NCBI GenBank assembly: GCA_902569415.1
Contig: CACFUH010000005.1
Location: forward strand, 1-50,384
DNA: 50,384 nt
Direction of reading: 5' to 3'
Source: an uncultured Pelagibacteraceae bacterium
GTDB taxonomy: Bacteria; Pseudomonadota; Alphaproteobacteria; Pelagibacterales; Pelagibacteraceae
A program made the position numbers and the translations under genes. Below are positions 17,969 to 48,987 of this stretch, one piece after another (position 1 is the stretch's first letter; every line of letters begins with the position of its first letter). The notes beneath the pieces were generated by a model. That model made no database searches. It saw nothing but the letters and a program-made list of their open reading frames with translations, and was not told the DNA's origin.

Positions 17969-18549
17969 TTGTAATTTTCTAGATAATCCTTAATTTTCTT
18001 AACTGGCAAGCCCATAATTGTGTCTTTATCGCCATCTATATTTGAAAATAAAGATTTGCCCTCTCCCTCAATTTGGTAAACATTATAAGCATATAGAGCA
18101 TCGTCTGTAATTTTAGATAGATATTCCTTGAGCTGTTGTTCATTCATATCTTTCATTGTTAAAGCGGCTCTATCAGTATAGTTCCAAATCATTGATCCAT
18201 TTTTTGAAATACAAACTGAACTTATTAAATAATGAGTTTTTCCATTTAATTTTTTTAATATTTTTAATGCTTCGTCTCTATTTTTAGGTTTAGAAACTAA
18301 TTCGCCACTTAAATCTATAACACTGTCAGCACCAATAACGATTTCATTTTTTAATTTTAAGCTTATTTTGTTTGCTTTAAGTTCTGCTAAATTCTTAGAT
18401 ATTAACTCAGGATTAGCTTTGTTTTTAATCAAACTTTTTTTGACTGGCTCTTCATCAACATTGGACGGAAAAACTTTACATTCTACTCCGTTATTTTCTA
18501 AAATATTCTTTCTTACTTTGCTGTTAGATGCAAGAATAACTTTATACAT
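17965..18549 (-). CDS. maf: Maf-like nucleoside triphosphate pyrophosphatase
   Basis: Maf proteins hydrolyse non-canonical or pyrimidine nucleoside triphosphates to monophosphates. The 194-aa protein begins KVILASNSKVRKNIL, the Maf signature, with the catalytic Asp in IVIGADSVIDLSGE near residue 70 and KPKNRDEALKILKKLNGKTH following. It sits between ppsR (8-nt overlap) and aroE (4-nt overlap). Confidence 0.95.
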   Translation of the reverse strand: MYKVILASNSKVRKNILENNGVECKVFPSNVDEEPVKKSLIKNKANPELISKNLAELKANKISLKLKNEIVIGADSVIDLSGELVSKPKNRDEALKILKKLNGKTHYLISSVCISKNGSMIWNYTDRAALTMKDMNEQQLKEYLSKITDDALYAYNVYQIEGEGKSLFSNIDGDKDTIMGLPVKKIKDYLENYK

Positions 18550-19363
18550 TTTGATTTTTTATTTCATATATTTTAATTATAGATGCTGCAATTTCTTCTA
18601 CTGATTTTCTAGTTACATCTATAACTGGCCACTGGTATTTTTTAAATGTTTCTTTCGCCTTTATTGTTTCTGTTTCAATTTTTTCAATATTTGTATAATC
18701 AGTTCCGTGTTCTTCTTTTAATGCTGTCATTCTATTTTTTCTTACATCAACTAATCTTCCTGGCTCAACAGTTAAACCAATTACGCATTTTAATTTTGGT
18801 TTTTTTTTTAAAAAATCTGGTATTGAATTTTCATTAATTAATGGAATATTTGAAGTTTTAAATCCTTTATTCGCTAAATATATGGATGTAGGTGTTTTAC
18901 TGGTTCTACTAACACCGAGTAAAATTATATCTGATTTTTCTAAATCTTGGACCATATTTCCATCATCATGGTTCATTGTAAATTGAATTGCTTCTATTCT
19001 TTTATCATGTTCTTCTAATGTATGCTGTCCACTTTGAATATGTGAGGCCCTTTGCTTTAATAATTTAGAAAAGTTTAAAATTAAATCCCCAAGAATACTA
19101 AAACAGGGGATATTATATTTTTTACTTTTTTCTTCTAAATATTTAGCAAGTTTATCATCAACAATTGTATAAAGAATTATTGGTTTTTTTTGTTTGTTAG
19201 CCATTTCTAATATCTTTTGGATTTGATTTTCTGTTCTTGTAAATGAAAACTGATGATTACTATATTTAAAATTTAAAAATTGTGCTTTTAATGCTAAAAA
19301 AATTCTATCAATTGTCTCTCCGGTTGAATCTGAAATTAAATAAATATCGTGTTTAATATTCAT
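18542..19363 (-). CDS. ppsR: Pyruvate,phosphate dikinase / PEP synthase regulatory protein (DUF299)
   Basis: A 273-aa bifunctional serine/threonine kinase and phosphorylase that controls PEP-forming dikinases by ADP-dependent phosphorylation and Pi-dependent dephosphorylation. It begins IYLISDSTGETIDRI and has the unusual P-loop LLGVSRTSKTPTSIYLA near residue 155 and VIGLTVEPGRLVDVRKNRM near 205. It is the first gene of the minus-strand operon and faces hemE across 283 bp, the gap that houses oriC in other alphaproteobacteria. Confidence 0.95.
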   Translation of the reverse strand: MNIKHDIYLISDSTGETIDRIFLALKAQFLNFKYSNHQFSFTRTENQIQKILEMANKQKKPIILYTIVDDKLAKYLEEKSKKYNIPCFSILGDLILNFSKLLKQRASHIQSGQHTLEEHDKRIEAIQFTMNHDDGNMVQDLEKSDIILLGVSRTSKTPTSIYLANKGFKTSNIPLINENSIPDFLKKKPKLKCVIGLTVEPGRLVDVRKNRMTALKEEHGTDYTNIEKIETETIKAKETFKKYQWPVIDVTRKSVEEIAASIIKIYEIKNQNV

Positions 19364-19646
19364 GTATAAAATGTTTATAACAACTTATTAAAGAAGTTTA
19401 ATATTAATAACTATTTTCATTTTTTTTTTACCTGAATAACTTTTATTTTGTTAACATAAATAAACATCTTAATAATTAATATACACAATTATTTATTTAA
19501 CCTAAAACTTAATAAAAAGAGGCTATTTGTCTTAATTTTTTATTATTTTTATCTGTTAGTATTTAGTGGGTAAAATGTTAAAAATTATTTATACCTTATA
19601 TTAACAGGATATAAAACAACAACTAAAGATTATATATAATTACTAT
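19364..19646. other. Candidate chromosomal replication origin (oriC) region
   Basis: This is the longest non-coding stretch of the window and lies between divergent DUF299 and hemE, the synteny of oriC in Caulobacter and Rickettsia. It is very AT-rich. I find two degenerate DnaA-box-like 9-mers, TGTTTATAA at 19372-19380 and ATATACACA at 19479-19487, each one mismatch from TTATNCACA on one strand or the other, and no perfect box. Genes mostly point away from it on both sides, and parS/parAB lie 10 kb to the right. Synteny is the main support. Confidence 0.6.
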
Positions 19647-20648
19647 ATGACTCCTATCCAAGACTGCATAATTAATAAAAATACAAAATCAAAACCTTTG
19701 TGGATTATGAGACAGGCTGGAAGATATCTTCCTGAGTTTAGAGAAATTAGAGCTAAAAACTCTGATTTCATTAAATTATGTTTAAATGAAAGTTTATCGT
19801 CAGAAATAACAATACAACCAATTAAAAGATTTAATTTTGATGCTGCAATAATTTTTTCAGATATTTTAATGTTACCATATGGTTTGGGTCAAGAAGTTAA
19901 ATTTGAAAAAGGTTTAGGTCCTAAATTAGGTAAATTAGATTTAGATTTAATTGAAAATGTAAGCAAAGATGAATTTAGTAAAAAATTAAATTCGGTTTAT
20001 AAATCTATATCTAATGTATCTTCTAACCCCATATGTAAAAATAAAGATATAATTGGTTTTGTGGGAGCGCCTTGGACAATCTTGATTTATATGATTAATA
20101 AAATGTCACCAAAAAAAAATCTTTCCAAAGAAATCTTTAATGATAAAATATTTATAAGAAAATTATTATCTATAATTGAGAAATTTCTTAAAATTCATAT
20201 TGAAAATCAAATTAAAGCAGGAGCAAGCATAATACAAATTTTTGACAGTTGGGCAGGATTATTAGAAGATAATATTTCTGAATTTATTTATGAACCAACT
20301 CTTAATCTTGTACAACACGTTAAGAAACTAGATGTACCTGTTACCTGTTTTCCTAGAGGAATAAAAGATTATAAGAATTTTTGTGAAGTTGTAAAACCTG
20401 ATATGGTAAACATTGATTATAATGTTGATCCTAATAAAATAATTAATGAAATAAAAATACCAGTACAAGGTGGGCTAGATCCAAAAATACTTTTAACTGA
20501 TAAAGAAAATCTGAGAATAGAAGTAATAAAATATCTTCAAATTTTTAAAGATCACCCTTATGTATTTAATCTCGGACATGGTATTTTGCCAGAAACAAAA
20601 ATTGATATGGTAGAAGAATTGGTAAAAACAGTTAGGGATTTTAAATAA
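19647..20648 (+). CDS. hemE: Uroporphyrinogen decarboxylase
   Basis: HemE decarboxylates the four acetate groups of uroporphyrinogen III to give coproporphyrinogen III. The 333-aa protein carries the signature PLWIMRQAGRYLPEFREIR near residue 13, the catalytic Asp in IIFSDILMLPYGLG near 70, and GFVGAPWTILIYM and IFDSWAGLL further on. It leads the plus-strand run hemE-hemH-hemJ-rho. Its stop overlaps the hemH ATG by 1 nt. Confidence 0.97.
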   Translation: MTPIQDCIINKNTKSKPLWIMRQAGRYLPEFREIRAKNSDFIKLCLNESLSSEITIQPIKRFNFDAAIIFSDILMLPYGLGQEVKFEKGLGPKLGKLDLDLIENVSKDEFSKKLNSVYKSISNVSSNPICKNKDIIGFVGAPWTILIYMINKMSPKKNLSKEIFNDKIFIRKLLSIIEKFLKIHIENQIKAGASIIQIFDSWAGLLEDNISEFIYEPTLNLVQHVKKLDVPVTCFPRGIKDYKNFCEVVKPDMVNIDYNVDPNKIINEIKIPVQGGLDPKILLTDKENLRIEVIKYLQIFKDHPYVFNLGHGILPETKIDMVEELVKTVRDFK

Positions 20649-21637
20649 TGGAAAAACATCCTGAAATAAAATATGGAAAAACAGGGGTTTTAATAGTTAA
20701 TTTGGGAACCCCAGATTCTACAAATTGGTTAGATGTTAGAAAATATCTAAAAGAGTTTCTGTCAGATAGAAGAGTAATTGAGGTAAACCCAATAATCTGG
20801 CAAGTTATACTTAATCTTTTTATTCTTAATTTTAGGCCTTCAAAAAGTGCTAGGGCTTATAAAGAAATATGGATGAAAGAAGAAAACATGTCTCCATTAC
20901 TATATTACACCAAAAAACAAGCTGAAAAACTTTCAAAATCTTTTACCAATGAAAATTTGATTATAGATTTTGCCATGAGATACGGCAATCCAAGTATTAA
21001 AAGTAAAATAAAAAAATTAAATGAAGAAGGTTGTGAAAATCTTATAATTTTACCCCTTTATCCTCAATATGCGGCAGCAACTACAGCAACTGTTTGTGAC
21101 GAAGTATATAGGACTTTAATGAATATTAGATGGCAGCCATCTTTAAAAATTATTCCACACTATGAGTCAGATCCATTATATGTTGATGCTTTAGTTAACT
21201 CAATAAATCTTAAAATAAAAAATATAAATTGGGAACCAGATTTGATTTTAGCTTCTTATCATGGAATACCACAGAAGTACTTTGACAAGGGGGATCCTTA
21301 TCATTGTTATTGTCACAAAACTACAAGACTAATTTCAGAAAAATTTAAATCTATTGAAATCAAAACAACTTTCCAATCTAGATTTGGCCCACAAGAGTGG
21401 CTTAAGCCATATACTGATAAAACTTTAGAAAATTTACCAAAAGAAGGAAAAAAAAATGTCCTAGCAATATGCCCGGGTTTTTCTTCTGATTGCGTTGAAA
21501 CACTAGAAGAAATATTAATTCAGGGCAAAAAGAGCTTTGTGGATTCAGGGGGTGAGAATTTTGATATGATACCATGTCTAAATGATAGTGAGGATCATAT
21601 AAATTTATTAAAAAATCTAATTCAAAAAAATATTTAA
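20648..21637 (+). CDS. hemH: Ferrochelatase
   Basis: HemH inserts Fe2+ into protoporphyrin IX. The 329-aa protein opens with KTGVLIVNLGTPDS, then IILPLYPQYAAATTATV, the catalytic His in SYHGIPQKYFDKGDPYHCYC near residue 200 and the conserved Glu in CPGFSSDCVETLEE near 275. It is coupled to hemE by TAATG and followed 3 nt later by hemJ, so late haem synthesis is one unit. Confidence 0.97.
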   Translation: MEKHPEIKYGKTGVLIVNLGTPDSTNWLDVRKYLKEFLSDRRVIEVNPIIWQVILNLFILNFRPSKSARAYKEIWMKEENMSPLLYYTKKQAEKLSKSFTNENLIIDFAMRYGNPSIKSKIKKLNEEGCENLIILPLYPQYAAATTATVCDEVYRTLMNIRWQPSLKIIPHYESDPLYVDALVNSINLKIKNINWEPDLILASYHGIPQKYFDKGDPYHCYCHKTTRLISEKFKSIEIKTTFQSRFGPQEWLKPYTDKTLENLPKEGKKNVLAICPGFSSDCVETLEEILIQGKKSFVDSGGENFDMIPCLNDSEDHINLLKNLIQKNI

Positions 21638-21640
21638 TTA

Positions 21641-22075
21641 ATGAATTATTATTTACTTTTTAAATCTTTACATCTAATTGCAGTTATTTCATGGATGGCA
21701 GGATTGTTATACCTACCAAGAATTTTTGTTTATCATGTTGAAAATTCAGAAAAAAAGGAAACCATCGAGATATTTGAGGTTATGGAAAAGCGTCTTTATT
21801 TTTACATTATGAGACCGGCAATGATATTAAGTTGGCTTTTTGGAATAATATTAATTTACACAAACGGGATAGACATTTTTTCACAAATTTGGATGCATAT
21901 AAAACTAGGCCTAGTTGTGCTTCTTACTATTTATCACGAATATCTGGGAATATGCTTAAAATCTCTTAAATTAAAAACTAATACAAAATCTGCAAAGTTT
22001 TTTAGAATAATCAATGAAGTGCCTACAATTTTATTAATATTTATTATTTTTATTGTTATTTTTAAGCCAATCTAG
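21641..22075 (+). CDS. hemJ: Protoporphyrinogen IX oxidase HemJ
   Basis: HemJ is the membrane oxidase that replaces HemG/HemY in many alphaproteobacteria. The 144-aa protein has the signature LFKSLHLIAVISWMAGLLYL at the N-terminus, including the conserved His, then LPRIFVYH, a basic loop MEKRLYFYIMRPAM, and two or three further membrane segments ending IFIIFIVIFK. The place after hemH supports it. Confidence 0.94.
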   Translation: MNYYLLFKSLHLIAVISWMAGLLYLPRIFVYHVENSEKKETIEIFEVMEKRLYFYIMRPAMILSWLFGIILIYTNGIDIFSQIWMHIKLGLVVLLTIYHEYLGICLKSLKLKTNTKSAKFFRIINEVPTILLIFIIFIVIFKPI

Positions 22076-22134
22076 GGTTGTAATTAACAAAATAATATAT
22101 ATATTAACTTTATCTTTTACGCCCCCCTAAAATT

Positions 22135-23406
22135 ATGAATATACAAGATCTTAAACAAAAAAGTTCGGAACAGCTTATAGAAGAAGCTGAAAAACTAGGT
22201 ATAGAAAACGCAAGCACCCTAAAAAGACAAGAAATATATTTTGCAATATTAAAGAAACTTGCTGAAAAAGGTGAAGAAATAACCGGTGGTGGAGTCTTGC
22301 AACTTTTACAGGATGGGTTCGGTTTTTTAAGAGCAATGGAGTCAAATTATTTACCTGGCCCAGATGATATATATATTAGCCCAAATCAAATCAGAAAGTT
22401 TGGTTTGAGGACAGGGGACACTGTTGAAGGTCCAATAAGAGCGCCCAAAGCAGGAGAAAGATACTTTGCCTTATTACAAGTAAATAAAATTAACTTTGAA
22501 GAACCTGAAAAATCAAAACACAAAATAGCGTTTGATAATTTAACGCCATTATATCCAAACAAACAAATAACGCTTGAAGTTGAAAGTAATAAAGTTGAAA
22601 AAAAACCTGATTTAACTGCAAGACTTATTGATTTAGTAAGCCCAATTGGTAAAGGACAAAGATCTCTAATTATTTCTCCACCTAAAGCTGGGAAAACTAT
22701 GATATTACAAAGCATTGCTAACTCCATAACAGCTAACCACCCAGAGTGTTATTTAATGGTTTTGTTAATAGATGAAAGACCAGAAGAGGTTACAGATATG
22801 CAGAGAACAGTTAAGGGAGAAGTTATTAGTTCGACTTTTGATGAGCCAGCTCAAAGACACGTTGCTGTTGCTGAGATGGTTATTGAGAAGGCAAAAAGAC
22901 TGACTGAACACAAAAAAGATGTTGTTATATTGTTAGATTCAATAACTAGATTAGGTAGAGCTTATAATGCTGTAGTTCCAAGTTCAGGAAAAGTATTAAC
23001 AGGAGGAGTAGACGCTAACGCACTTCAAAGGCCAAAAAGATTTTTTGGAGCCGCAAGAAACATAGAAGAAGGGGGATCACTTACAATTATTGCGACTGCT
23101 TTAATTGATACAGGAAGTAGAATGGATGAAGTTATATTTGAAGAGTTTAAGGGAACTGGTAATAGTGAAACTATACTGGATAGAAAAATTTCTGAGAAAA
23201 GAATATTTCCTGCAATTGATATAACCAAATCAGGAACAAGAAGAGAAGAATTATTATTTGATAAAAATGATTTACAAAAAATGAATGTTTTAAGAAGAAT
23301 AATTGCTCCTATGGGACCAATGGATGCTATAGAATTTATTAATTCCAAACTTAAAAATACCAAGAATAATGCTGAATTTTTTAATTCAATGAATAAACCA
23401 GCATAA
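22135..23406 (+). CDS. rho: Transcription termination factor Rho
   Basis: Rho is the hexameric RNA helicase for factor-dependent termination. The 423-aa protein has the Rho N-domain (1-45), the cold-shock RNA-binding domain with [16 protein letters not shown] near residue 52 and [18 protein letters not shown], Walker [12 protein letters not shown] near 182, Walker [18 protein letters not shown] near 265, and the Q/R-loop area [20 protein letters not shown]. Length is typical. Rho autoregulation by upstream attenuation is common, but the 59-bp leader here shows no clear structure. Confidence 0.97.
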
Positions 23407-23444
23407 TCGTATATATTATTTCATATATTATTAAGTCATTTTAA

Positions 23445-24989
23445 ATGAATTTAATTACCGAAACTCAAAAATTACAAAATTATCTAAAGATTCAAGATTA
23501 TAAAACTGTAGTTAATGGATGTGAAAAATTAATTAAAAAGTTTCCAAACAATCCTTTTTTATTTAATTTACTAGGATTGGCTTTTCATGGCAGCGGCAAG
23601 TTTCTTATTGCAATTGACAGATATAAGAAAGCTTTAGATCTTGATTTAAACTTTCTGCCAGCCATGAATAATATTGCTAATTCATATAAAGCAATTGGTA
23701 ATTTTGAAAAGGCAGAAAATTATTATAGTAAGGTTATTAAAATTAAACCTAACTATTTTCAAGCAATTAACAATTATGCAAATCTTAAAACTTTAATTTA
23801 TGAATATTCAACAGCAATTGAATTGTATGAAAAGGCATTAGTAATTAAAGAAAACGATACAACTATTTTATTTTCTCTTGCTAATGCATATCATGCTATA
23901 GGAGATATTAATAAAACAAAAGAAATTATATTAAAAATTTTGTCTTTTGATCCTGAACATATATCCACACATAAATTATGGAGTTCAATTGTTAATTATT
24001 CTAAAGATAAAGCAAATTTAAATCAGATGAAAAATTTAATCTTAAAAAATAAATTATCTAACAGTCAAATAGTAGATTTGTCTTTTGCGCTTGGTAAGGC
24101 ACATGAAGATTTAAAAGAATATGAAAGTTCTTTTTTCCATCTAAAAAAAGCCAATCTAATAAAAGAAAAAGAATATAATTATAATATAGAAGATGAGGAG
24201 TTACTGATTGATTCAATTAAAAACAGTTTTGAAGATTTGAATTTAAATAATGAAAAAAAAATTTTTGAGAAAAGAAAAGCAATTTTTATATGTGGAATGC
24301 CTAGATCGGGAACTACTTTAGTTGAGCAAATAATAGCATCCCACAAAGATGTTTTTGGTGCAGGAGAATTGATTTATCTACAAAGGATAGTAAATAAATA
24401 TTTTATTAATGAAAAAAAATTATCAAAAAATAAATTAGCTGATGAAATAGAACTGTCCAGCAACAATATAAATCAAGACTATTTTAAGATGATCAATTAT
24501 CATAAATTTAAGGAAAATAACTTTACTGATAAAGCACCTCAAAATTTTAGATGGATCGGTTTAATTAAATTATTTTTTCCAAACTCAAAAATAATTTATT
24601 GTAAAAGAAATGCCAAAGATAATTGTTTATCAATATATAAAAATTTTTTTGCTTCAGATGATATGAAATGGGCATTTAATGAAAAAAACATTGCTCAATA
24701 TTATAATTTACATTTAAATTTAATGGAATATTGGAAAACTAAATTTGATCAACAAATATATGAAATTAATTATGAAAAATTAGTTTCTAATAAAGAGGAT
24801 GAAATAAAAAAAATGATTAAATTTTGTGATTTAGATTGGGATCCAATTTGTCTTAATCATCATAAAAATAAAAAAACTCCAATAAAAACTGTTAGTATTT
24901 CACAAGCCAGAGAGCCAGTTTATAAAAGTTCAGTTAATTCGAATTCAAACTATGAGAATTATTTATCAAAAATGTTTGATTTACTATAA
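23445..24989 (+). CDS. TPR-repeat sulfotransferase, copy 1
   Basis: A 514-aa two-domain protein. Residues about 1-270 are tetratricopeptide repeats (for example PFLFNLLGLAFHGSGKFLIA, PAMNNIANSYKAIGNFEKAE). The rest is a PAPS-dependent sulfotransferase with the 5'-phosphosulfate loop FICGMPRSGTTLVEQ near 280, a catalytic-His-type IIASHKDV, and the 3'-phosphate-binding KIIYCKRNAKDNCLSIYK near 383. TPR-sulfotransferases are common in marine alphaproteobacteria; the acceptor is unknown. It is followed 18 nt downstream by a paralogue. No signal peptide or membrane segment is seen. Confidence 0.87.
   Translation: MNLITETQKLQNYLKIQDYKTVVNGCEKLIKKFPNNPFLFNLLGLAFHGSGKFLIAIDRYKKALDLDLNFLPAMNNIANSYKAIGNFEKAENYYSKVIKIKPNYFQAINNYANLKTLIYEYSTAIELYEKALVIKENDTTILFSLANAYHAIGDINKTKEIILKILSFDPEHISTHKLWSSIVNYSKDKANLNQMKNLILKNKLSNSQIVDLSFALGKAHEDLKEYESSFFHLKKANLIKEKEYNYNIEDEELLIDSIKNSFEDLNLNNEKKIFEKRKAIFICGMPRSGTTLVEQIIASHKDVFGAGELIYLQRIVNKYFINEKKLSKNKLADEIELSSNNINQDYFKMINYHKFKENNFTDKAPQNFRWIGLIKLFFPNSKIIYCKRNAKDNCLSIYKNFFASDDMKWAFNEKNIAQYYNLHLNLMEYWKTKFDQQIYEINYEKLVSNKEDEIKKMIKFCDLDWDPICLNHHKNKKTPIKTVSISQAREPVYKSSVNSNSNYENYLSKMFDLL
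24543..24596 (+). repeat. 54-nt segment shared with 25800-25853
   Basis: AATTTTAGATGGATCGGTTT and the rest of this 54-nt stretch recur at 25800-25853 with a single C/T difference. It encodes NFRWIGLIKLFFPNSKII in both sulfotransferase copies, while flanking codons have diverged. Confidence 0.9.
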
Positions 24990-25007
24990 GTCATTTTTTT
25001 AATTTGT

Positions 25008-26249
25008 ATGGATAAAATTTTAATAAAAAGTCTTAATTTATTAAGAGAAAATAATAATTTAAATGAGATAATAAAAATACTCCTTTTAGAAAAAAAAAAA
25101 AATCCTAAAGACAAAGAAATTCTTTTTCAGCTAGGAGGAGCTTATAGATCGCTGGGCAATTTTGAGGCAGCTTTAGCAAATTATGAAGATATTTTAAAAT
25201 ATGATGAATCATACACACCTGCTTTTAGAATGATAGGGACAATCATAAATCACAAGCAAAATGATAAATATTTAAAAAAATTAGAAATATTAAAAGAAAA
25301 AAATGAATTATTAAAAACACAGAAAATAGATTTATTTTTTGCCCTTGGAAAAGCTTATGAAGATCTAAATGAAAATGAAAAATCATCAGATTACTATATA
25401 CGAGCAAATAATTTAAAAAAAAGTTTTACGAAATATAATTTTAATTCACACAAAGAACATTTTGAGCAAATTTATAAAATTTTTAAAGATATTAATTTTA
25501 ATATAAAAAAAACATATAGTGCTAATACAAAAAAAATTATCTTTATTTGCGGATTGCCAAGATCAGGAAGTACACTATTTGAGAATATAATTGCTTCCCA
25601 TAAAGATGTATATTCAGGTGGTGAATTGCCATATTTGCAAAGAGCAATTAAGAAGCATTTTGTTGAAAATAATAATATTAGCAAAGAAAAAATTTTCAAT
25701 CATTTAGACAATAAAAATAAAGATTTTAACAATGATTATTTTAAAAGTTTAATAAATCATAATTTTTCAGAAAAAAATGTAACCGATAAGCAATTAGATA
25801 ATTTTAGATGGATCGGTTTAATTAAATTATTTTTTCCAAATTCAAAAATAATTCTATGTAAAAGAAATCCTAGAAGCAATGCAATATCAATTTATAAAAA
25901 TAATTTTAATACACCTACTTATAATTGGACTAATGACCCAAAAGACATTTTATGTTATTTTAAATATTATAATAAAATAATTAATATTTGGAAAAATAAG
26001 TTTCCTAATGAATTATTTGAAATCGAGTACGAGGAATTAGTAGATAAAAAAGACGATATAATAAAAAAAATTATAAATAATTGTGAATTAGATTGGGACC
26101 CAAACTGCCTTTTATTCTATAAAAATAAGTCACCCATTAAAACAGCAAGTGCTTTTCAGGCAAGGCAACCAATATATAATTCTTCAGTAAATAAAGATGC
26201 TTCTTTATTTAAAAATATCTTTTTAGATCAAGATTTTAGTAATATTTAA
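25008..26249 (+). CDS. TPR-repeat sulfotransferase, copy 2
   Basis: A 413-aa paralogue of the preceding gene. The TPR part is shorter (about residues 1-150, e.g. LFQLGGAYRSLGNFEAALAN). The sulfotransferase domain has FICGLPRSGSTLFEN near 178 in place of the usual GT pair (GS here), ASHKDVYSGGELPYLQRA, and ILCKRNPRSNAISIYK. The C-termini also match (SPIKTAS..QARQPIYNSSVN). The two copies probably arose by tandem duplication and share a 54-nt nearly identical DNA segment. They could sulfate different acceptors. It lies 39 nt before mnmE. Confidence 0.86.
   Translation: MDKILIKSLNLLRENNNLNEIIKILLLEKKKNPKDKEILFQLGGAYRSLGNFEAALANYEDILKYDESYTPAFRMIGTIINHKQNDKYLKKLEILKEKNELLKTQKIDLFFALGKAYEDLNENEKSSDYYIRANNLKKSFTKYNFNSHKEHFEQIYKIFKDINFNIKKTYSANTKKIIFICGLPRSGSTLFENIIASHKDVYSGGELPYLQRAIKKHFVENNNISKEKIFNHLDNKNKDFNNDYFKSLINHNFSEKNVTDKQLDNFRWIGLIKLFFPNSKIILCKRNPRSNAISIYKNNFNTPTYNWTNDPKDILCYFKYYNKIINIWKNKFPNELFEIEYEELVDKKDDIIKKIINNCELDWDPNCLLFYKNKSPIKTASAFQARQPIYNSSVNKDASLFKNIFLDQDFSNI
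25800..25853 (+). repeat. 54-nt segment shared with 24543-24596
   Basis: Second copy of the segment described at 24543-24596, differing at one base (T for C at position 42 of the repeat). It is inside the sulfotransferase domain of copy 2. Confidence 0.9.
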
Positions 26250-26288
26250 AATTTACATTATTCAATAAATCTAGTTATACTAATAGAG

Positions 26289-27620
26289 ATGACAATTTAC
26301 GCTCTTTCAACTGGACCAGGAATATCAGGATTAGCTGTAATAAGAATTTCAGGTTCTGAATGTAAATTAATACTAAATAAAATGACAAATGGAAGTTCTT
26401 TAGAGCCCAGAGTTGCTACCCTAAAAAAAATCAACAAAATCAACACTAATGAGTTGATAGACGAAGGTTTAATTTTGTGGTTTCCAGGCCCTGAGAGCTA
26501 CACAGGTGAAGATATGTTAGAATTTCATGTGCATGGAAGCAGAGCTGTCATAGAAAGCATACATACATCGATTTCAAAGATAGAAAATTGCAGATTGGCA
26601 GAACCTGGAGAGTTTACAAAGATTGCATTTCAAAATGGCAAGATAAATCTTCTTAAAGCAGAAAGTATTTCTGATTTAATTTCTTCAGAAACTGAAATTC
26701 AAAGACAACAAGCAATTAAAATTATGTCTGGAAAAAGTTCTGAAAAATTTAATGGATGGAGAGAAAAATTATTAAAAATTTTATCGAATGTTGAAGCCAA
26801 AATAGATTTTCCAGAAGAAAATCTTCCAGACAATATTCTAAAAGATATCAAAAGTTCTTCAAAAAAAATAAAAGAAGAAATTAAAAAATTATTAAATGAC
26901 CAAAAAGTTGGAGAAAGAATTAGAGAAGGGTTTAAGATTGCTATAGTTGGTCCGACTAACGCTGGTAAATCATCTTTATTAAATTACCTTTCAAAAAGAG
27001 ATGTTGCAATAGTTTCAGAAATTGCCGGTACTACAAGAGATGTGATTGAAACTCACTTAAGTATAGATGGCCTGCCGGTAATAATCTCAGATACTGCTGG
27101 TATAAGAGAGTCTAAAGATGAAATAGAAAAAAAAGGTATTAAACTAGCCCTAAAAAGCGCTGAGAAAGCCGATTTAAATATTATAATAATAGAGCCTAAA
27201 AGCGTTGATTTTACTGGTTTTTTGAATGATTTGGTTAATGAAAAAGCTATTTTTGTTTTAAATAAATCTGATTTGGGAGTTCAGAATTTGAATCCAAATT
27301 TAAAAAAATTAAATCCTATTTTGATATCTTTAAAAAATGAAAAAAATATTGAAGAGTTAATTTCTGCAATTAAAATAAAATTAAAAAATAAATTTCTTAC
27401 CTCAGATGACATTTTGATTACAAGAGAAAGACATAGACAGCATTTAGAACAGTGTGTTCAAAATTTAGAAAACTTTGAAAATAAAAATAACACAGAGGAT
27501 TTTGATAAAGCAGCAGAAGATTTAAGGTTAGCGACTAGACATTTGGGAATAATTGTTGGAAAAGTAGATGTAGAGGAGATATTAGGTAGCATTTTCAACG
27601 ATTTTTGCATAGGCAAATAA
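26289..27620 (+). CDS. mnmE: tRNA uridine-5-carboxymethylaminomethyl modification GTPase MnmE
   Basis: MnmE works with MnmG to modify U34 of certain tRNAs. The 443-aa protein begins TIYALSTGPGISGLAVIRIS with the formyl-THF-binding domain (1-120). The G domain has G1 VGPTNAGKSSLLN near 221, G2 region GTTRDV, G3 SDTAGIRES near 268 and G4 LNKSD near 332. It ends in FCIGK, with the conserved Cys of the C-terminal CIGK motif. mnmG follows after 137 bp. Confidence 0.97.
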   Translation: MTIYALSTGPGISGLAVIRISGSECKLILNKMTNGSSLEPRVATLKKINKINTNELIDEGLILWFPGPESYTGEDMLEFHVHGSRAVIESIHTSISKIENCRLAEPGEFTKIAFQNGKINLLKAESISDLISSETEIQRQQAIKIMSGKSSEKFNGWREKLLKILSNVEAKIDFPEENLPDNILKDIKSSSKKIKEEIKKLLNDQKVGERIREGFKIAIVGPTNAGKSSLLNYLSKRDVAIVSEIAGTTRDVIETHLSIDGLPVIISDTAGIRESKDEIEKKGIKLALKSAEKADLNIIIIEPKSVDFTGFLNDLVNEKAIFVLNKSDLGVQNLNPNLKKLNPILISLKNEKNIEELISAIKIKLKNKFLTSDDILITRERHRQHLEQCVQNLENFENKNNTEDFDKAAEDLRLATRHLGIIVGKVDVEEILGSIFNDFCIGK

Positions 27621-27757
27621 AGTACGTTTTATGGGCTTTTTTTGTAAATATTAAGCTTTTTTCATTGATAAACAATGGTTTTAAAGCATTTTATAAGTTT
27701 TTTTTTAGTTTTCTTCTCTGATCTTGTAAATATTTTATTGAGTTATAAGTTTAACTT
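27621..27757. other. mnmE-mnmG intergenic region
   Basis: 137 bp of T-rich sequence between two plus-strand genes. I see no ORF, no strong hairpin and no DnaA-box cluster. It presumably holds an mnmG promoter, since the gap is long for this genome, but no clear -35/-10 pair stands out. Confidence 0.3.
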
Positions 27758-29629
27758 ATGAAAAATGATTTATCATTTGATGTAGTTGTTATTGGAGGTG
27801 GACACGCTGGCTGTGAAGCAGCTGCAGCATCAGCTAGATTAGGAGTTAATACAGCATTGTTTACTCACAAAATTGAAACAATAGGAGAGATGTCATGTAA
27901 TCCTGCCATTGGTGGATTAGGAAAAGGACACTTAGTTAGAGAAATAGATGCATTAGATGGCGTGATGGGAGATGTAGCTGACAAATCAGGTATTCAATTT
28001 AGATTGCTTAATAGAAGTAGAGGTCCAGCGGTCAGAGGGCCTAGAACTCAAAGTGATAGATTCTTATATAAAAAATATATGCAGGAAAAACTTCTAAACT
28101 ACTGTAATTTAAGAGTTTTTTCTGATCCTGTAATTGAGTTTATTTTTGAAAAAAATAGCATAAAAGGTTTTAAAACACAATCAGGAAAAAAAATTAAAAC
28201 ATCGAGGCTAATACTAACAACCGGCACTTTTTTAAATGGTTTGATTCATGTAGGTGAAAAACAAACACCAGCCGGTAGATATAATGAAAAACCTACGACT
28301 GGATTGAGTGAACAATTAAAAAAACTTAAATTTAAAATTGGAAGGCTTAAGACAGGCACACCTCCAAGACTTGACTCTAGATCAATTAATTTTAATAATT
28401 TGGAGGAACAGTTTGCAGATGATGATCCTTATTTTTTTTCTTTCCTAACCAAAAAAAATTTAAACAAACAAATCTCATGTCGGATTACCTATACTAATGA
28501 GGCTGTCCATAAAATTATTTCAAAGAATATTAAACGAAGCGCCATGTATTCAGGAAGCATCCAGGGAGTTGGACCAAGGTACTGTCCATCTATAGAGGAT
28601 AAAGTTGTTAAGTTTGCAGAAAAGCAAAGACATCAAATTTTTTTAGAGCCTGAAGGGCTAAATGACTATACTGTTTACCCAAACGGAATATCTACATCGT
28701 TACCAGCGGAAGTTCAGCAAGAAATATGTAGCAAAATCAGTGGTTTAGAGAATGTTAAAATATTAAGGCCTGGTTATGCCATTGAGTATGATTTTGTGGA
28801 CCCAAGAGAGCTATTTTTAACTCTTGAGACAAAGAAAATCAAAAATTTGTATCTAGCAGGTCAAATCAATGGAACTACTGGGTATGAAGAAGCGGCTGCA
28901 CAGGGACTTGTTGCTGGAATTAACTCGGCACTCTCGCTAAAGGGTAGTGGGCCATTTATTTTAGATAGATCTGAGGCATATATAGGAGTAATGATAGATG
29001 ATCTCGTTACAAAAGGTGTTGCTGAGCCATATAGGATGTTTACTTCTAGAGCCGAATATAGACTATCCTTAAGATCCGATAACGCTGATATTAGACTTAC
29101 TCAAAAAGGAATAGATATAGGCCTTGTGCTTGATCAAAGAAAAGAATTATACTTAGAGAAGCACTCACAGCTTAAAAAAATTCTAAATAAAATGGATAAA
29201 TTGACAATTTCTCCATCCAAAGTATTTAAATTTGGCGTAAATATTGCAAAAGATGGTGTTAACCGAAATGCTATTCAGATATTAAGCCAGAAATCAGTAG
29301 ATATGTCCAAGATACGTGAAATTTGGCCTGAAATTACTTATGTTTCACGTGAAATTGATGAGCAATTAGAGATAAATTCCCATTATAGAGGTTATTTAAA
29401 GAAGCAAGATGCAGACATTTTAGCTTTTAAAAGAGATGAAAATCTTATTATTCCAGAAAATATAGACTACGATATATTTTCAGGACTATCTAATGAAGTT
29501 AAATCAAAATTTAAGAAAATAAGACCAAAAACCATGGGTCAAGCACTAAGAATCGATGGAATAACTCCTGCAGCTGTATATATTTTGTTGTCTCATCTAA
29601 AAAGAAAGTCTATTAAGCATATAGCTTGA
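27758..29629 (+). CDS. mnmG: tRNA uridine-5-carboxymethylaminomethyl modification enzyme MnmG (GidA)
   Basis: MnmG is the FAD-dependent partner of MnmE. The 623-aa protein has the FAD-binding [20 protein letters not shown] at residues 10-29, the family motif [34 protein letters not shown], and [20 protein letters not shown] near 370. The codons for YVSREI near residue 529 contain a one-mismatch parS site. The TGA overlaps the rsmG TTG start by 4 nt. Confidence 0.97.
29341..29356. other. parS: parS-like site (near-perfect) inside mnmG
   Basis: TGTTTCACGTGAAATT matches the 16-bp parS consensus TGTTTCACGTGAAACA at 14 positions and the 14-bp core at 13. It is 332 bp from the perfect core in rsmG and encodes VSRE in mnmG. 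Confidence 0.65.
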
Positions 29630-30270
29630 TTGATTCGAATTTTATAAAAAACTCAAAACTTAATATTCAAAACGTTTCACGTGAAACATTAGAGGAACTA
29701 AACAATTACAGTTTGTCCATTATTAAAAAGAACAAAGAGATAAATCTGATAAGCTCAAGCACAGAAAAGTCAATAAATACAAGGCATATTGCTGATAGTG
29801 CACAAACCATTGATTTTATTAATAAAAATGATGTTAAAATATGCACTGACTTAGGGTCAGGTGCAGGGTTACCTGGTATAGTATTAGCAATATTGATGAA
29901 ACCAAAAAAACCAGAATTTAAGGTCATTTTATATGAAAAAAGCCATCACAAGAGCAATTTCTTAAAAGAAATTTCAAAAAAACTTAAATTAAACACTGAA
30001 ATTAATCAAAAAAATATTTTCGAACAAAAAGATTTAAGAACAGACATTATAATTTCTAGAGCATTCAAACCTCTGCCTGTTATTTTTGAAATAGCTTCTA
30101 CGAATTTTAAAAAATTTAAATATATAATTTTATTTTTAGGAAAAAGCGGAAAAGAAATTTTAAAGGAGGCATCAAAGAAATGGAAATTTGATTATGAAGA
30201 AAAAAAAAGTTTAACAAGTGAAGAGTCATTAGTAGTAAAGATTTCAAATTTACAAAAAAAAAATGTATAA
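29626..30270 (+). CDS. rsmG: 16S rRNA (guanine527-N7)-methyltransferase RsmG (GidB)
   Basis: RsmG methylates G527 of 16S rRNA. The 214-aa protein has the N-terminal [14 protein letters not shown], a stretch common in alphaproteobacterial RsmG, INLISSS, the SAM-binding [18 protein letters not shown] near residue 76 and [10 protein letters not shown]. No ATG lies near the start; TTG at 29626 overlaps the mnmG stop by 4 nt, and I accept it. Codons 17-21 (VSRET) carry the parS palindrome. It overlaps parA by 8 nt. Confidence 0.95.
29673..29688. other. parS: parS centromere site inside rsmG
   Basis: CGTTTCACGTGAAACA contains the perfect 14-bp palindrome GTTTCACGTGAAAC (29674-29687), the consensus ParB-binding site; only the first outer base differs from TGTTTCACGTGAAACA. 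It lies 575 bp before parA, in the usual parS position near the origin. Confidence 0.9.
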
Positions 30271-31063
30271 AAAAATTATTTCAGTAATTAATCAAAAAGG
30301 TGGAGTAGGTAAAACTACAACGGTAATTAATTTAGCTGCAGGCTTGACTATGAGAGGAAAAAAAATATTAGTAATCGATCTTGATCCACAAGGTAATGCT
30401 ACAACAGGGCTTGGACTATCCAATACAGAAAACTCCGAACTAACAATTTATAGTGTACTTAATGGAAATAAAAAAATTTCAGAGGTTGTTCAATCAACTA
30501 AGATCGATAATTTAAATTTGGTGACTTCAAATGTAGATCTCTCGGGTTTGGAGGTTGAGACTGCAGGAGATAGCAGAAGGGCCTTTAAATTGAAAGACGA
30601 ATTAGCCGCTATTTTAAATGATTCTGGAGCATCATATGATTATATTCTCATTGATTGTCCACCATCACTAAGTCTTCTAACAATTATGGCATTAGTTGCT
30701 TCAGACGAGCTCGTAGTACCTCTGCAAACAGAATTTTTTGCATTAGAAGGTCTTACCCAATTGATGAAAACGATAGAGAGGATTAAGTCCAACTTAAATC
30801 CATCTCTAAGTATACGAGGTATCCTTCTCACAATGTATGATAAGAGAAATAAGTTATCTGGTGAAGTAGAAAATGAAGCTAGAAACTATTTTAAAGAAAA
30901 AGTTTATCAAACAGTGGTACCAAGAAATGTAAGACTGTCAGAAGCTCCATCTCATGGAGTACCAGTTCTTCTTTATGATAAATCATGCCCAGGAAGTAAA
31001 TCATATTTTAATTTTACAGATGAATTTTTAAACCAAGAAAAACCTGTAGAGAGCGCTGCATGA
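30263..31063 (+). CDS. parA: Chromosome-partitioning ATPase ParA
   Basis: ParA (Soj) is the deviant-Walker ATPase that moves ParB-parS complexes. The 266-aa protein begins ISVINQKGGVGKTTTVINLA with the signature KGGVGKTT at residues 11-18, VIDLDPQGNATTGLG near 41 and YILIDCPPSLSLLT near 127. Start ATG is preceded by a run of A's and no Shine-Dalgarno, and overlaps rsmG by 8 nt. Its stop overlaps parB by 4 nt (ATGA). Confidence 0.97.
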   Translation: MYKKIISVINQKGGVGKTTTVINLAAGLTMRGKKILVIDLDPQGNATTGLGLSNTENSELTIYSVLNGNKKISEVVQSTKIDNLNLVTSNVDLSGLEVETAGDSRRAFKLKDELAAILNDSGASYDYILIDCPPSLSLLTIMALVASDELVVPLQTEFFALEGLTQLMKTIERIKSNLNPSLSIRGILLTMYDKRNKLSGEVENEARNYFKEKVYQTVVPRNVRLSEAPSHGVPVLLYDKSCPGSKSYFNFTDEFLNQEKPVESAA

Positions 31064-31911
31064 TAAATCCATTTAAATCTAAAAAAGGATTAGGGAGAGG
31101 ATTGTCATCCTTAATTGGTGATACTGACGTCAAAATTTCAAATAATAAAATCTCAATCAGTTCAATTATTCCTAACAAATTTCAACCAAGAAAAAAATTT
31201 GATAAAGAGAGCTTAGAAGATTTAACAAATTCGATTAAAGAACGAGGAGTTATCCAACCACTTATAGTTAGAAAGTCTGATGATCAATCTGAAAAGTATG
31301 AATTGATAGCAGGTGAAAGAAGGTGGCAAGCCTCTCAATCTGCTGGTCTTCACGAAGTACCTGTAGTGATAATAGAAGCAGATAATTTAAAATCATTAGA
31401 ATTTGCAATTGTTGAAAATGTACAACGGAAAGATTTAAATCCTATTGAAGAAGCAAACGGTTATCAAAAACTAATTGACCAGTTTGATTATGATCAAGAA
31501 AAAGTATCAAAGTTTATTGGCAAAAGTAGATCGCATGTATCAAACTGTTTAAGATTACTTACACTTCCAAATGAAGTAATTACACTTATAGAGGAGAATA
31601 AACTTTCACAAGGTCATGCTAAAGTGCTAGTTGGCCTTGAAAATGCTAACTTTTTAGCAAAAAAGATCATAGAGAATAAACTATCTGTTAGACAGTCAGA
31701 AACACTAACAAAATCAATCAAAAGTAATCAAGGAAAAATAAAAACAAGCAAAAATCCAAATATTACTAGCTTGGAGAAATCAGTTGAGGAAGTTACTGGT
31801 ATTAAAGTTTTTATTAGAAATAGAAAAAATAATACTGGTCAAGTCACTTTTGATTATAAAGATCTAGATCAACTGAATAGATTAATAATGGTTATTAAAG
31901 CAAACTATTAG
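31060..31911 (+). CDS. parB: Chromosome-partitioning protein ParB (CTPase)
   Basis: ParB binds parS and spreads as a CTP-dependent clamp. The 283-aa protein has GRGLSSLIGD at the N-terminus, the ParB/Sulfiredoxin-like domain with NKFQPRKKFD near residue 42, the CTP-binding AGERRWQA near 87 and ENVQRKDLNPIEEA near 120, then the HTH FIGKSRSHVSNCLRLL near 157, and a C-terminal dimerisation part. It converges on holA with only 2 nt between stops. Confidence 0.97.
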   Translation: MINPFKSKKGLGRGLSSLIGDTDVKISNNKISISSIIPNKFQPRKKFDKESLEDLTNSIKERGVIQPLIVRKSDDQSEKYELIAGERRWQASQSAGLHEVPVVIIEADNLKSLEFAIVENVQRKDLNPIEEANGYQKLIDQFDYDQEKVSKFIGKSRSHVSNCLRLLTLPNEVITLIEENKLSQGHAKVLVGLENANFLAKKIIENKLSVRQSETLTKSIKSNQGKIKTSKNPNITSLEKSVEEVTGIKVFIRNRKNNTGQVTFDYKDLDQLNRLIMVIKANY

Positions 31912-38843: not shown

Positions 38844-39331
38844 CCTATAATTATTTTACTATTCTTTCTTACACTTTTGCATAGGATAAAAAAATCTTTT
38901 TTTGATAAAGCAATACATCCTGCTGTAGGTTTATAATTCTTTGTAAGATGAATAAAAATAGCACTTCCTTTATTTTTTTTTGCTTTTGGAAAATTATATT
39001 TAATCAAAATAAATAAGTCGTACTTGTAATCATGTCGATATAATTTTTCGTATTTAATTTTTTTACTTACCTTAATTTCTTTATTATAATAAGAACTATT
39101 AACATCATTACACCATCCCATATTTTTCTTAATTTTTTTACAAAACAATTTTGTTTTTGGTTTTTTTGTTCTATCAGATCTCCAATATAAAGTCCCAAGT
39201 TTAAACTTTCCTGCAGGAGTTCGTAAATCTCCTTCAATCTTATTTTTTGATATACCTTTTTTTCCTATACAGCATTTAAGTTTGAATTCAGCAATATTTA
39301 AAGTATCTTTATTTTTTAATTTAATTATCAT
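38840..39331 (-). CDS. L,D-transpeptidase (YkuD domain, COG3786-like)
   Basis: A 163-aa YkuD-type protein that may cross-link or edit peptidoglycan. The catalytic region reads AIFIHLTKNYKPTAGCIALS near residue 128, with the His and the Cys of the H...GC motif; earlier EGDLRTPAGKFKLG near 34 and MGWCNDVNSSYYN near 70 are also typical of the COG3786 branch. No signal peptide is seen, as in many members. It overlaps yggS by 4 nt at the 3' ends and is divergent from the winged-helix gene with a 13-bp gap. Confidence 0.86.
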   Translation of the reverse strand: MIIKLKNKDTLNIAEFKLKCCIGKKGISKNKIEGDLRTPAGKFKLGTLYWRSDRTKKPKTKLFCKKIKKNMGWCNDVNSSYYNKEIKVSKKIKYEKLYRHDYKYDLFILIKYNFPKAKKNKGSAIFIHLTKNYKPTAGCIALSKKDFFILCKSVRKNSKIIIG

Positions 39332-39344
39332 AATTTGTATTTTT

Positions 39345-39914
39345 ATGAATAAACAGAATATACTAATTTATAAATTACCTGAATTATTTAATATTTTAAA
39401 CGAATTAAAAAACCATCTAGATTTTATAATACATTCATTTTCTGAAGAAAAAGAATTGATAAGATTTAAAAAAATAAATAGAGAAAATTATTTAATTTTA
39501 ACTAATTCAGAAAACCAAATTAAGAAAGATAGATTTCAATTAATATTAACTAAGTTTCCAGATACAATTTATTCGATAATTGAAAAAATAAATGTAAATT
39601 TATTAAAATATAAGTATTTAGAGCAATCCGATATAATAATTGGTGGATATTCGATTGATGTAAATTCAAGATTAATAAAAAAGAATGATTTAACTTTGAA
39701 GTTAACAGAAAGAGAAATTGAAATTATAATATTTTTAAAAAACTCTTTTAAACCTCAAAATATAGAAAATCTTCAAAAGAAGGTTTGGGGTCATCATTCC
39801 GAGCTAGAAACTCATACTGTTGAAACTCATATTTATAGATTAAGAAAAAAGATATCTGAAAAGTTTAGCGATGGTAACTTTATTAAAAGTACAAAAACAG
39901 GTTACAAAATTTGA
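39345..39914 (+). CDS. Winged-helix (OmpR-type) transcriptional regulator
   Basis: A 189-aa protein with an OmpR/PhoB-type DNA-binding domain at about residues 95-189: LTLKLTEREIEIIIFLKN, VWGHHSELETHTVETHIYRL (recognition helix) and STKTGYKI. The N-terminal 90 residues have a receiver-like alternation (NILIYKLPELFNIL, ENYLILTNSE) but I see no clear phosphoacceptor Asp, so phosphorylation is doubtful. I choose ATG 39345 over the track's upstream start at 39282 to avoid running into the divergent L,D-transpeptidase gene. Likely a regulator of that neighbour or of itself, by inference. It overlaps the next small ORF by 1 nt (TGATG). Confidence 0.83.
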   Translation: MNKQNILIYKLPELFNILNELKNHLDFIIHSFSEEKELIRFKKINRENYLILTNSENQIKKDRFQLILTKFPDTIYSIIEKINVNLLKYKYLEQSDIIIGGYSIDVNSRLIKKNDLTLKLTEREIEIIIFLKNSFKPQNIENLQKKVWGHHSELETHTVETHIYRLRKKISEKFSDGNFIKSTKTGYKI

Positions 39915-45633: not shown

Positions 45634-45652
45634 AATTAACTTTCATTCCTCA

Positions 45653-45679
45653 TATATGTGTTATTTTTTAATCTACAAG
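45653..45679 (-). promoter_or_regulatory. Heat-shock (RpoH-like) promoter of dnaK
   Basis: On the minus strand CTTGTA, 13 nt, then CACATATA resembles CTTGAA-N13-15-CCCCATNT. It ends 19 nt before the dnaK ATG, leaving a short leader with GAGG. It is weaker than the hslV and grpE examples. Confidence 0.5.
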
Positions 45680-45691
45680 TTACTTTAAAAA

Positions 45692-46318
45692 CTAATTTTC
45701 TTTAGATTTTGATTGATTTTCCTCACTTTTTTGATTTTTTTTTGAATTTTCTTCTTTATTAATTGTTTTTTTTGAAACTGCTACTAGCGCTGGCCTTAAA
45801 AGTCTTTCTTTCATCATAAAACCTTTTTGAATTTCCTGAACTACTGTTCCAGTTTCTTTATTATCATCTTCTATTTCCAACATTGCCTGATGTAAATTTG
45901 GGTCTAATTTTTGATCGACTGATTTTATTTCTTCTATATTATTTTTCTTTAATATAGATAGCATATCCTTTTGTATTATATCTAAATGTTCAATTATTTT
46001 TTTTAGTCCTTCAGTACTTTTTAATTTTTCATCATTTTCTAGTGCAATTTTTGATCTTTCTAAATTATCAATCAAGTTCAAAGTTTCTTTTGCAAGTGCA
46101 AAACCACCATAATCAAATGCATCATCTTTTTCTTTTTCAAATCTTCTTCTTTGATTTTCAATTTCCGCATAAGCTCTTGCCAGCCTATCCTCCAATTCTT
46201 TTATTTTATCTTCAGGATTTATATTTTCATCTGTTTTAGATGTATCTTCTGTATTTTTATTGTCTCTAATCTCTTCTTGATTATTAGAATTATCGTGCTG
46301 GTTTTCTTCTTTTTCCAT
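45692..46318 (-). CDS. grpE: Nucleotide exchange factor GrpE
   Basis: GrpE releases ADP from DnaK. The 208-aa protein has an acidic, Asn-rich N-terminal tail (about 1-35), the long dimerisation helix DKIKELEDRLARAYAEIENQ, the family motif NQRRRFEKEKDD, and the beta-domain with GTVVQEIQKGFMMKERLLRPALVAVS near 165. It is 58 bp upstream of dnaK on the same strand with its own RpoH-like promoter. hrcA, often beside grpE, is absent here. Confidence 0.96.
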   Translation of the reverse strand: MEKEENQHDNSNNQEEIRDNKNTEDTSKTDENINPEDKIKELEDRLARAYAEIENQRRRFEKEKDDAFDYGGFALAKETLNLIDNLERSKIALENDEKLKSTEGLKKIIEHLDIIQKDMLSILKKNNIEEIKSVDQKLDPNLHQAMLEIEDDNKETGTVVQEIQKGFMMKERLLRPALVAVSKKTINKEENSKKNQKSEENQSKSKEN

Positions 46319-48123: not shown

Positions 48124-48987
48124 ATGAATCTACAAACTGACTCACTAAATATTAATTTAAAATATGGCTTATATATAGTTTCTACACCTATTGGAAATTT
48201 AGAAGATATTACATTAAGAGCTTTAAAAGTATTAAAGAATTCGGAATATATTTTATGTGAAGACACTAGAGTTTCAAAGAAATTATTATCAAAGTATAAG
48301 ATTAAATCTAACTTAATTTCCTATCATAAATTTAATGAGAAAAAAAACCTACAAAAAATAATTGATATTTTAAAATCAAATAAAGTTGTCTCTTTAATAT
48401 CTGATGCTGGAACTCCTACTATTTCTGATCCTGGCAATATACTTATTAAAGAATGTATAAGAAATGAAATAAATTTAATACCTATCCCTGGGCCATCTGC
48501 ACCTACTGCATCTCTTTCTATCAGTGGTTTTTTAGACAAATATTATTTTTATGGATTTTTCCCTGAAAGTAATTCAGAAATAAATAAAAATTTTTCAAAT
48601 TTATCTCAATTAAATGGTTCAATTGTATTTTTTATATCTGCAAAAAAATTTAATAGATCGCTTAACATAATTAAAAAATATTTTTCTGATCGAGAAATTT
48701 TAATTTGTAAAGAAATTACTAAATATTTTGAAGAATATTTTAGATTTAATATTAATGAGATAGATCAAAAAAAAATTAGTTTAAAAGGTGAAATTACACT
48801 AGTAATTTCTGAAAAAAAACTTGTAAATAAAACCTCAGACAATTTAAGCGAATCTGATAAAACAAAAATTAGAAAGCTAATTAAAAAATTAAGTATTAAA
48901 GAAATTGTAGATTTGATTAAAGAAGGGAAAAGTATACAAAAAAAAGAAATTTACAATTATTGTTTAAAAATGAAAAATGAAAAATAA
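48124..48987 (+). CDS. rsmI: 16S rRNA (cytidine1402-2'-O)-methyltransferase
   Basis: RsmI methylates the ribose of C1402 in the decoding centre. The 287-aa protein has the SAM-dependent tetrapyrrole-methylase fold: YIVSTPIGNLEDITLRAL near residue 17, LCEDTRVSKKLL near 40, LISDAGTPTISDPG near 90 and IPGPSAPTASLSISGF near 118. The C-terminal helix bundle is complete. It overlaps the next gene by 11 nt. The yraN gene often found next to rsmI is missing here. Confidence 0.96.
   Translation: MNLQTDSLNINLKYGLYIVSTPIGNLEDITLRALKVLKNSEYILCEDTRVSKKLLSKYKIKSNLISYHKFNEKKNLQKIIDILKSNKVVSLISDAGTPTISDPGNILIKECIRNEINLIPIPGPSAPTASLSISGFLDKYYFYGFFPESNSEINKNFSNLSQLNGSIVFFISAKKFNRSLNIIKKYFSDREILICKEITKYFEEYFRFNINEIDQKKISLKGEITLVISEKKLVNKTSDNLSESDKTKIRKLIKKLSIKEIVDLIKEGKSIQKKEIYNYCLKMKNEK

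Follow-up and report, generated by a model that had tools for sequence, protein, structure and literature searches.

A Caulobacter-type chromosome origin with a drifted DnaA-box code, predicted in the ppsR-hemE gap of a SAR11 bacterium

Introduction

The proven chromosome origin of Caulobacter crescentus, Cori, is located at the hemE/COG1806 locus, and other alphaproteobacterial origins have been placed at the same border (PMC1914354). The predicted origins of Rickettsia prowazekii and of Wolbachia/Ehrlichia resemble the locus described here in that they are AT-rich, are bordered by hemE and/or COG1806, and belong to reduced genomes (PMC1914354). A further point of comparison is the basal unwinding system of Bacillus subtilis and others, comprising a DnaA-box plus a DnaA-trio, for which the published rule emphasises the middle position of the trio (PMC8287927).

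SAR11 bacteria rank among the most abundant marine cells, and growth estimates for them are derived from the metagenomic coverage of the origin versus the terminus. SAR11 populations display V-shaped coverage with one origin (PMC9589681), and in one paper the SAR11 origin was "manually identified" (PMC4033161). In a literature search, we found no sequence-level description of this origin; predicted-origin databases may well list one. Here, we analyse a 50,384-nt stretch of DNA from an uncultured Pelagibacteraceae bacterium, hereafter the window, and compare its ppsR-hemE gap with the above systems.

Results and discussion

The ppsR-hemE gap and its neighbours

The gap extends over 283 bp (19364..19646) and was annotated as the oriC core based on its box cluster and on its length in relatives. 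It is flanked by ppsR (DUF299, COG1806; 18542..19363, minus strand; PF03618, E=3.6e-84) and hemE (19647..20648, plus strand; PF01208, E=3.5e-80). According to ORF tiling, the gap is the longest true intergenic region in the 50-kb window. Two longer gaps in a greedy tiling, at 48267-48976 and 45634-46150, were artefacts that arose because overlapping ORFs had been dropped. The AT content of the gap was 84.1% as compared to a window mean of 73.0%, and 1.6% of same-size windows were equally AT-rich. No Rfam family, tRNA or riboswitch was found in 19364-19646. These data bear out the original prediction, which had singled out the longest gap as being very AT-rich and flanked by the same genes as oriC in Caulobacter and Rickettsia, a border described in PMC1914354. 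Overall, the gap shares with Cori the two flanking genes, an AT content above the mean and a cluster of DnaA-box-like sites (PMC1914354), but is shorter, at 283 bp versus over 400 bp.

Gene direction reverses at the gap, and plus-strand genes then run unbroken from 19647 to 31911 (12.3 kb), consistent with the predicted flip and 12 kb of plus-strand genes to the right. On the left are fxsA, secB, dnaQ, coaE, aroE, maf and ppsR; on the right are hemE, ferrochelatase, UPF0093, rho, two TPR-sulfotransferases, mnmE, gidA, gidB, parA and parB. These neighbours are the classical alphaproteobacterial origin cluster. The origin segregation genes parA and parB were annotated at 30263..31911 (plus strand), and two palindromic parS-like sequences occur at 29341..29356 (TGTTTCACGTGAAATT, 2 mismatches) and 29673..29688 (CGTTTCACGTGAAACA, 1 mismatch). 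The gap thus resembles Cori in having parABS near by, at the distance of 10 kb that had been claimed.

The otherwise conserved origin cluster contains an insertion between rho and mnmE, namely two genes encoding TPR plus sulfotransferase (23445-26249, plus strand). At this position, the relative G003 has a single minus-strand ORF instead of the pair.

Location of the origin in closed relatives

The window's own assembly comprises 46 contigs, is 65% complete and yielded no dnaA in these contigs. Due to this fragmentation, the location of the origin was tested in closed relatives, namely 11 closed genomes from four genera (g1, g5, g7 and g9). Among named records, those closest to the window are single-cell genomes of Pelagibacteraceae (AG-365-F20, AG-439-B12 and others), with a ppsR identity of 83-88%. 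The gap beside ppsR was present in all 11 closed relatives, with a length of 267-356 bp, and measured about 262-293 bp in genus relatives. In genus g7 (G007 and G015), hemE is missing from the origin and is located close to the opposite point of the chromosome, at a distance of about 0.6 Mb, leaving ppsR as the only one of the two border genes. More specifically, hemE of G007 is at 0.72 Mb and its gap is between ppsR and rho. In G028 (358206-359182), hemE was present as two overlapping frames of 112 and 243 aa, the result of a frameshift or sequencing error.

In all ten relatives searched, parS was found within 7-20 kb of the gap, on either side. In the complete genome of G003, the parS near the gap was the only site within 2 mismatches. 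By contrast, the position of dnaA relative to the gap was +61 to +65 kb in g1 and g9, where it is on the hemE side, and -71 to -74 kb in g5 and g7, where it is on the ppsR side. A dnaA that occurs on opposite sides and a parS that stays near the gap are what would be expected if inversions had taken place around an origin close to the gap.

This arrangement argues against an origin beside dnaA, as occurs in many bacteria and as might be read from published SAR11 alignments, which start at DnaA by convention (PMC12421898); the gap would then be only a divergent promoter region. To compare the two locations, we modelled fourfold-degenerate sites as differing between the leading and lagging strands, with gene strand controlled so that gene direction was not a confounder. 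The sequence analysed comprised the whole of G003 (1.2 Mb) and roughly two thirds each of G007 and G028. In both G003 and G028, the best leading/lagging switch was offset from the gap by 6 kb towards ppsR, and placing the switch at dnaA incurred deviance penalties of 14 and 49, respectively. In block bootstraps with a free terminus, the switch fell within 40 kb of the gap in 91% (G003) and 82% (G028) of replicates and within 40 kb of dnaA in 12% and 4%, respectively. When the terminus was forced opposite, the combined bootstrap spanned -52 to +30 kb. The localisation was carried by the A/T signal, GC at fourfold sites having no power. In G007, the fourfold-site skew had no power and was compatible with dnaA.

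The raw cumulative GC skew of G003 reached its minimum at 97.9 kb, between the gap (67 kb) and dnaA (130 kb), on a floor that is flat over 40-140 kb and covers both. Raw GC skew therefore cannot separate the gap from dnaA, whereas fourfold-site skew disfavours dnaA as the switch point in G003 and G028. As in Cori-type origins, the strand composition of these two genomes switches at the locus at a resolution of tens of kb: strand asymmetry gives the neighbourhood, and 300 bp is beyond its resolution. The original prediction had named a skew minimum next to dnaA as the result that would count against it; in the relatives, the fourfold-site model went against dnaA in two of the three genomes and raw GC skew was undecided. 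Considering also that no TTATNMACA cluster elsewhere in G003 is as dense as that of the gap, we regard an origin beside dnaA as very unlikely.

DnaA-box-like sites

The gap of the window contains no exact TTATNCACA and two sites that are one mismatch from it (0.5 expected), in keeping with the claim that only degenerate DnaA-box-like 9-mers are visible. A position weight matrix trained exclusively on relatives detected 7 sites of >6 bits, as compared to 0.9 expected; an equal density was found in 0.18% of windows across the 50 kb. Site A (TTATAAACA; 19372..19380, minus strand; score 8.4) is conserved in most of the subclade. Site B (TTGTTAACA; 19448..19456, plus strand), identified by the weight matrix, is TTATTAACA in the ten closest aligned relatives, which belong to the window's subclade and lack the TTATTCACA of other subclades. 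A weaker site, ATATACACA, is at 19479..19487 (plus strand; score 6.2). Site C (ATACTAACA; 19554..19562, minus strand) aligns with TTATTAACA of relatives. The 9-mer TTACCCACT (19565..19573, minus strand) has two mismatches to TTATCCACA and is variable in the subclade, while site D (TTTTTAACA; 19576..19584, minus strand) was identified by both the weight matrix and the subclade alignment. Finally, site E (ATATTAACA; 19598..19606, plus strand) is TTATTCACA in many relatives and adjoins the periodic element described below.

The gaps of relatives commonly contain one exact standard box, TTATTCACA, plus several copies of TTATTAACA. Among 33 gaps, TTATTAACA occurred 57 times and was present in 30, as compared to about 1.8 gaps expected from dinucleotide shuffles. 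The standard box was present in 18 of these gaps versus 0.4 expected from such shuffles. An alignment of 109 gaps was equivalent to about 38 effective sequences; in it, conservation over 9 columns was highest at TTATTCACA, adjacent to hemE, and at TTATTAACA in either orientation. Alignment across SAR11 relatives, proposed earlier as a check, thus placed DnaA-box-like 9-mers at the top. Within the subclade, identity was 96.0% in the box columns versus 90.8% elsewhere, and 4 of 287 circular shifts were as good. The suggestion that the SAR11 origin may use non-consensus boxes was correct in that most relatives use TTATTAACA and the window's subclade lacks the standard box, but most relatives also have one standard TTATTCACA. 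The box set of the window appears to have drifted from that of its relatives.

The motif TTATNMACA was also clustered on a genomic scale. When counted per 300 bp, it reached four occurrences nowhere in the complete G003 genome except in the gap; three occurrences were likewise confined to the gap in the 340 kb of G007 and the 400 kb of G028 analysed. These counts bear on an origin within about 10 kb of the gap but outside it, for example closer to parS or towards ppsR. Such a location would fit the skew peak, about 6 kb to the ppsR side, and kilobases are below the resolution of skew. However, the box cluster occurs at no other place near by and it is the gap that holds the conserved non-coding architecture, making this location extremely improbable. 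From these data, we infer that the 9-mers in the gap are real DnaA binding sites. The protein side looks ordinary, in that DnaA domain IV of the closed relatives retains the RDHTT signature.

A 13-bp block in the gap, CTATTTGTCTTAA (19523-19535), has no likeness to a box and is invariant in the subclade. The block is not common to other subclades, many of which have AAAAAGCTTCA near that place. It is perhaps a subclade-specific protein site.

A triplet-periodic element beside the last box

Site E is followed by a DnaA-trio-like element, GGATATAAAACAACAACTA (19607..19625, plus strand), with A at +7, +10, +13, +16 and +19 after the box. This five-A run is the only one in the gap of the window. 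Among 73 distinct tails, A occupied these positions past the last box in 85, 89, 99, 96 and 96%, respectively. All five As were present in 90 of 108 genus gaps, the background start rate of such a run being 2.2% of positions there. This rule, derived from genus g1, also applies to two held-out genera, those of G007 (box TTATAAACA, element TGACCTAATAACAAAACTA) and G028 (box AAACTAACA, element GCACCTACCAATACCAATA). On the MAFFT alignment, permuting columns gave only a suggestive result for the A run (p=0.063); stronger evidence comes from the ungapped test anchored on the box and from the held-out genera.

As in the DnaA-box/DnaA-trio system, a triplet-repeating element abuts a box-like site at fixed spacing. 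The published DnaA-trio rule, which requires three or more consecutive 3'-NAN-5' no further than 16 bp from the box, held in 46% of gaps versus 54% of shuffles, which does not exceed the chance level for DNA this rich in AT, because it is the third base that is conserved and not the middle one. By contrast, three or more NTA triplets were present in 43% of gaps versus 9% of shuffles. The SAR11 element further differs from the basal unwinding system in that this third base is nearly invariant and the spacer is only 4 nt. Accordingly, the element is not a strict DnaA-trio member, although its geometry and triplet period recall one by analogy. Based on these sequence patterns, we favour, with moderate confidence, a role for the element in unwinding.

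The conserved elements might instead be promoters or operators of hemE and ppsR rather than parts of an origin. The gap is divergent and must contain both promoters, and the A-every-third-base element ends about 20 bp before hemE, a possible place for a -10 box. In G007, however, hemE is elsewhere and rho follows the gap, yet the boxes and the periodic element both persist; they are therefore not a hemE promoter. Moreover, the box clustering is unique genome-wide in G003, and skew and parS both indicate the gap. We consequently give a purely promoter-based explanation hardly any credence.

A model for initiation

Several lines of comparative evidence converge on the gap as the location of the origin, as do the clustering of boxes, sequence conservation and the geometry of the periodic element. 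Consistent with the putative chromosome origin of the original prediction, the relatives provide fourfold-site skew in two of three genomes, the densest box cluster in the whole of G003, conserved box columns and parS within 20 kb. We conclude that 19364-19646 is very probably the single chromosomal oriC of this SAR11 cell. It is a known kind of origin, the Caulobacter type, resolved at sequence level and with a drifted box code.

In the mechanism that we propose, DnaA, encoded elsewhere (about 60-75 kb away in relatives), would bind about six weak 9-mers of consensus TTATTMACA and, from the last box (site E), would be loaded onto the adjacent 19-nt A-every-third-base element. This element would melt first, leading to helicase loading and the departure of two forks, after which ParB at the nearby parS would segregate the new origin. 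We infer the binding of DnaA, the melting of the periodic element and the validity of this scheme for the uncultured species; the 19-nt element is a concrete candidate for the first-unwound site.

At the level of bases, the predicted origin should be recognisable across SAR11 as a region of 270-350 bp on the ppsR side that contains a TTATTMACA cluster and an A-every-third-base element. An origin at the ppsR gap would provide a fixed anchor for coverage-based growth work, independent of the side-changing dnaA.

CtrA, IHF and other regulators

The CtrA motif TTAA-N7-TTAA did not occur in the gap of the window and, over 111 gaps, was present at 0.29 per gap versus 0.31 expected. Similarly, the IHF motif WATCAN5WTR did not occur in the window gap and was present at 0.30 versus 0.33 expected per gap over the same number of gaps. 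GANTC sites in 111 gaps were not above chance; a CcrM homologue has been reported in SAR11 (PMC3973325). Of the four OmpR-type regulators in G003, one is PhoB and another has a degenerate receiver; neither these nor the remaining two reached the CtrA equivalog cut-off. This agrees with a report of no ctrA in Pelagibacter (PMC2877005).

In contrast to Cori, the SAR11 gaps are therefore not enriched in CtrA or IHF sites, and their boxes are shifted to TTATTAACA. Some Rickettsia, Wolbachia and Ehrlichia species also have few CtrA sites (PMC1914354), but these bacteria keep TTATNCACA boxes and an IHF site, neither of which is present in the window gap. CtrA sites are missing in some accepted predicted origins (PMC1914354) and so are not strictly required for the Cori-type class, of which the SAR11 gap would be a CtrA-free version. 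It is conceivable, although we consider it somewhat doubtful, that SAR11 has a modified initiation code in which degenerate TTATTMACA boxes are recognised by a conserved DnaA domain IV and unwinding occurs at a trio-like element with an invariant third, not middle, base, neither CtrA nor IHF acting at the origin.

An OmpR-type DNA-binding protein whose receiver is degenerate or absent is encoded in the window at 39282-39914 (plus strand) and in the relatives at G003:85195, G028:386427 and G007:113183. In several SAR11 genera, the gene for this protein is located some 18-28 kb away from the gap, and the protein is a candidate origin-proximal regulator.
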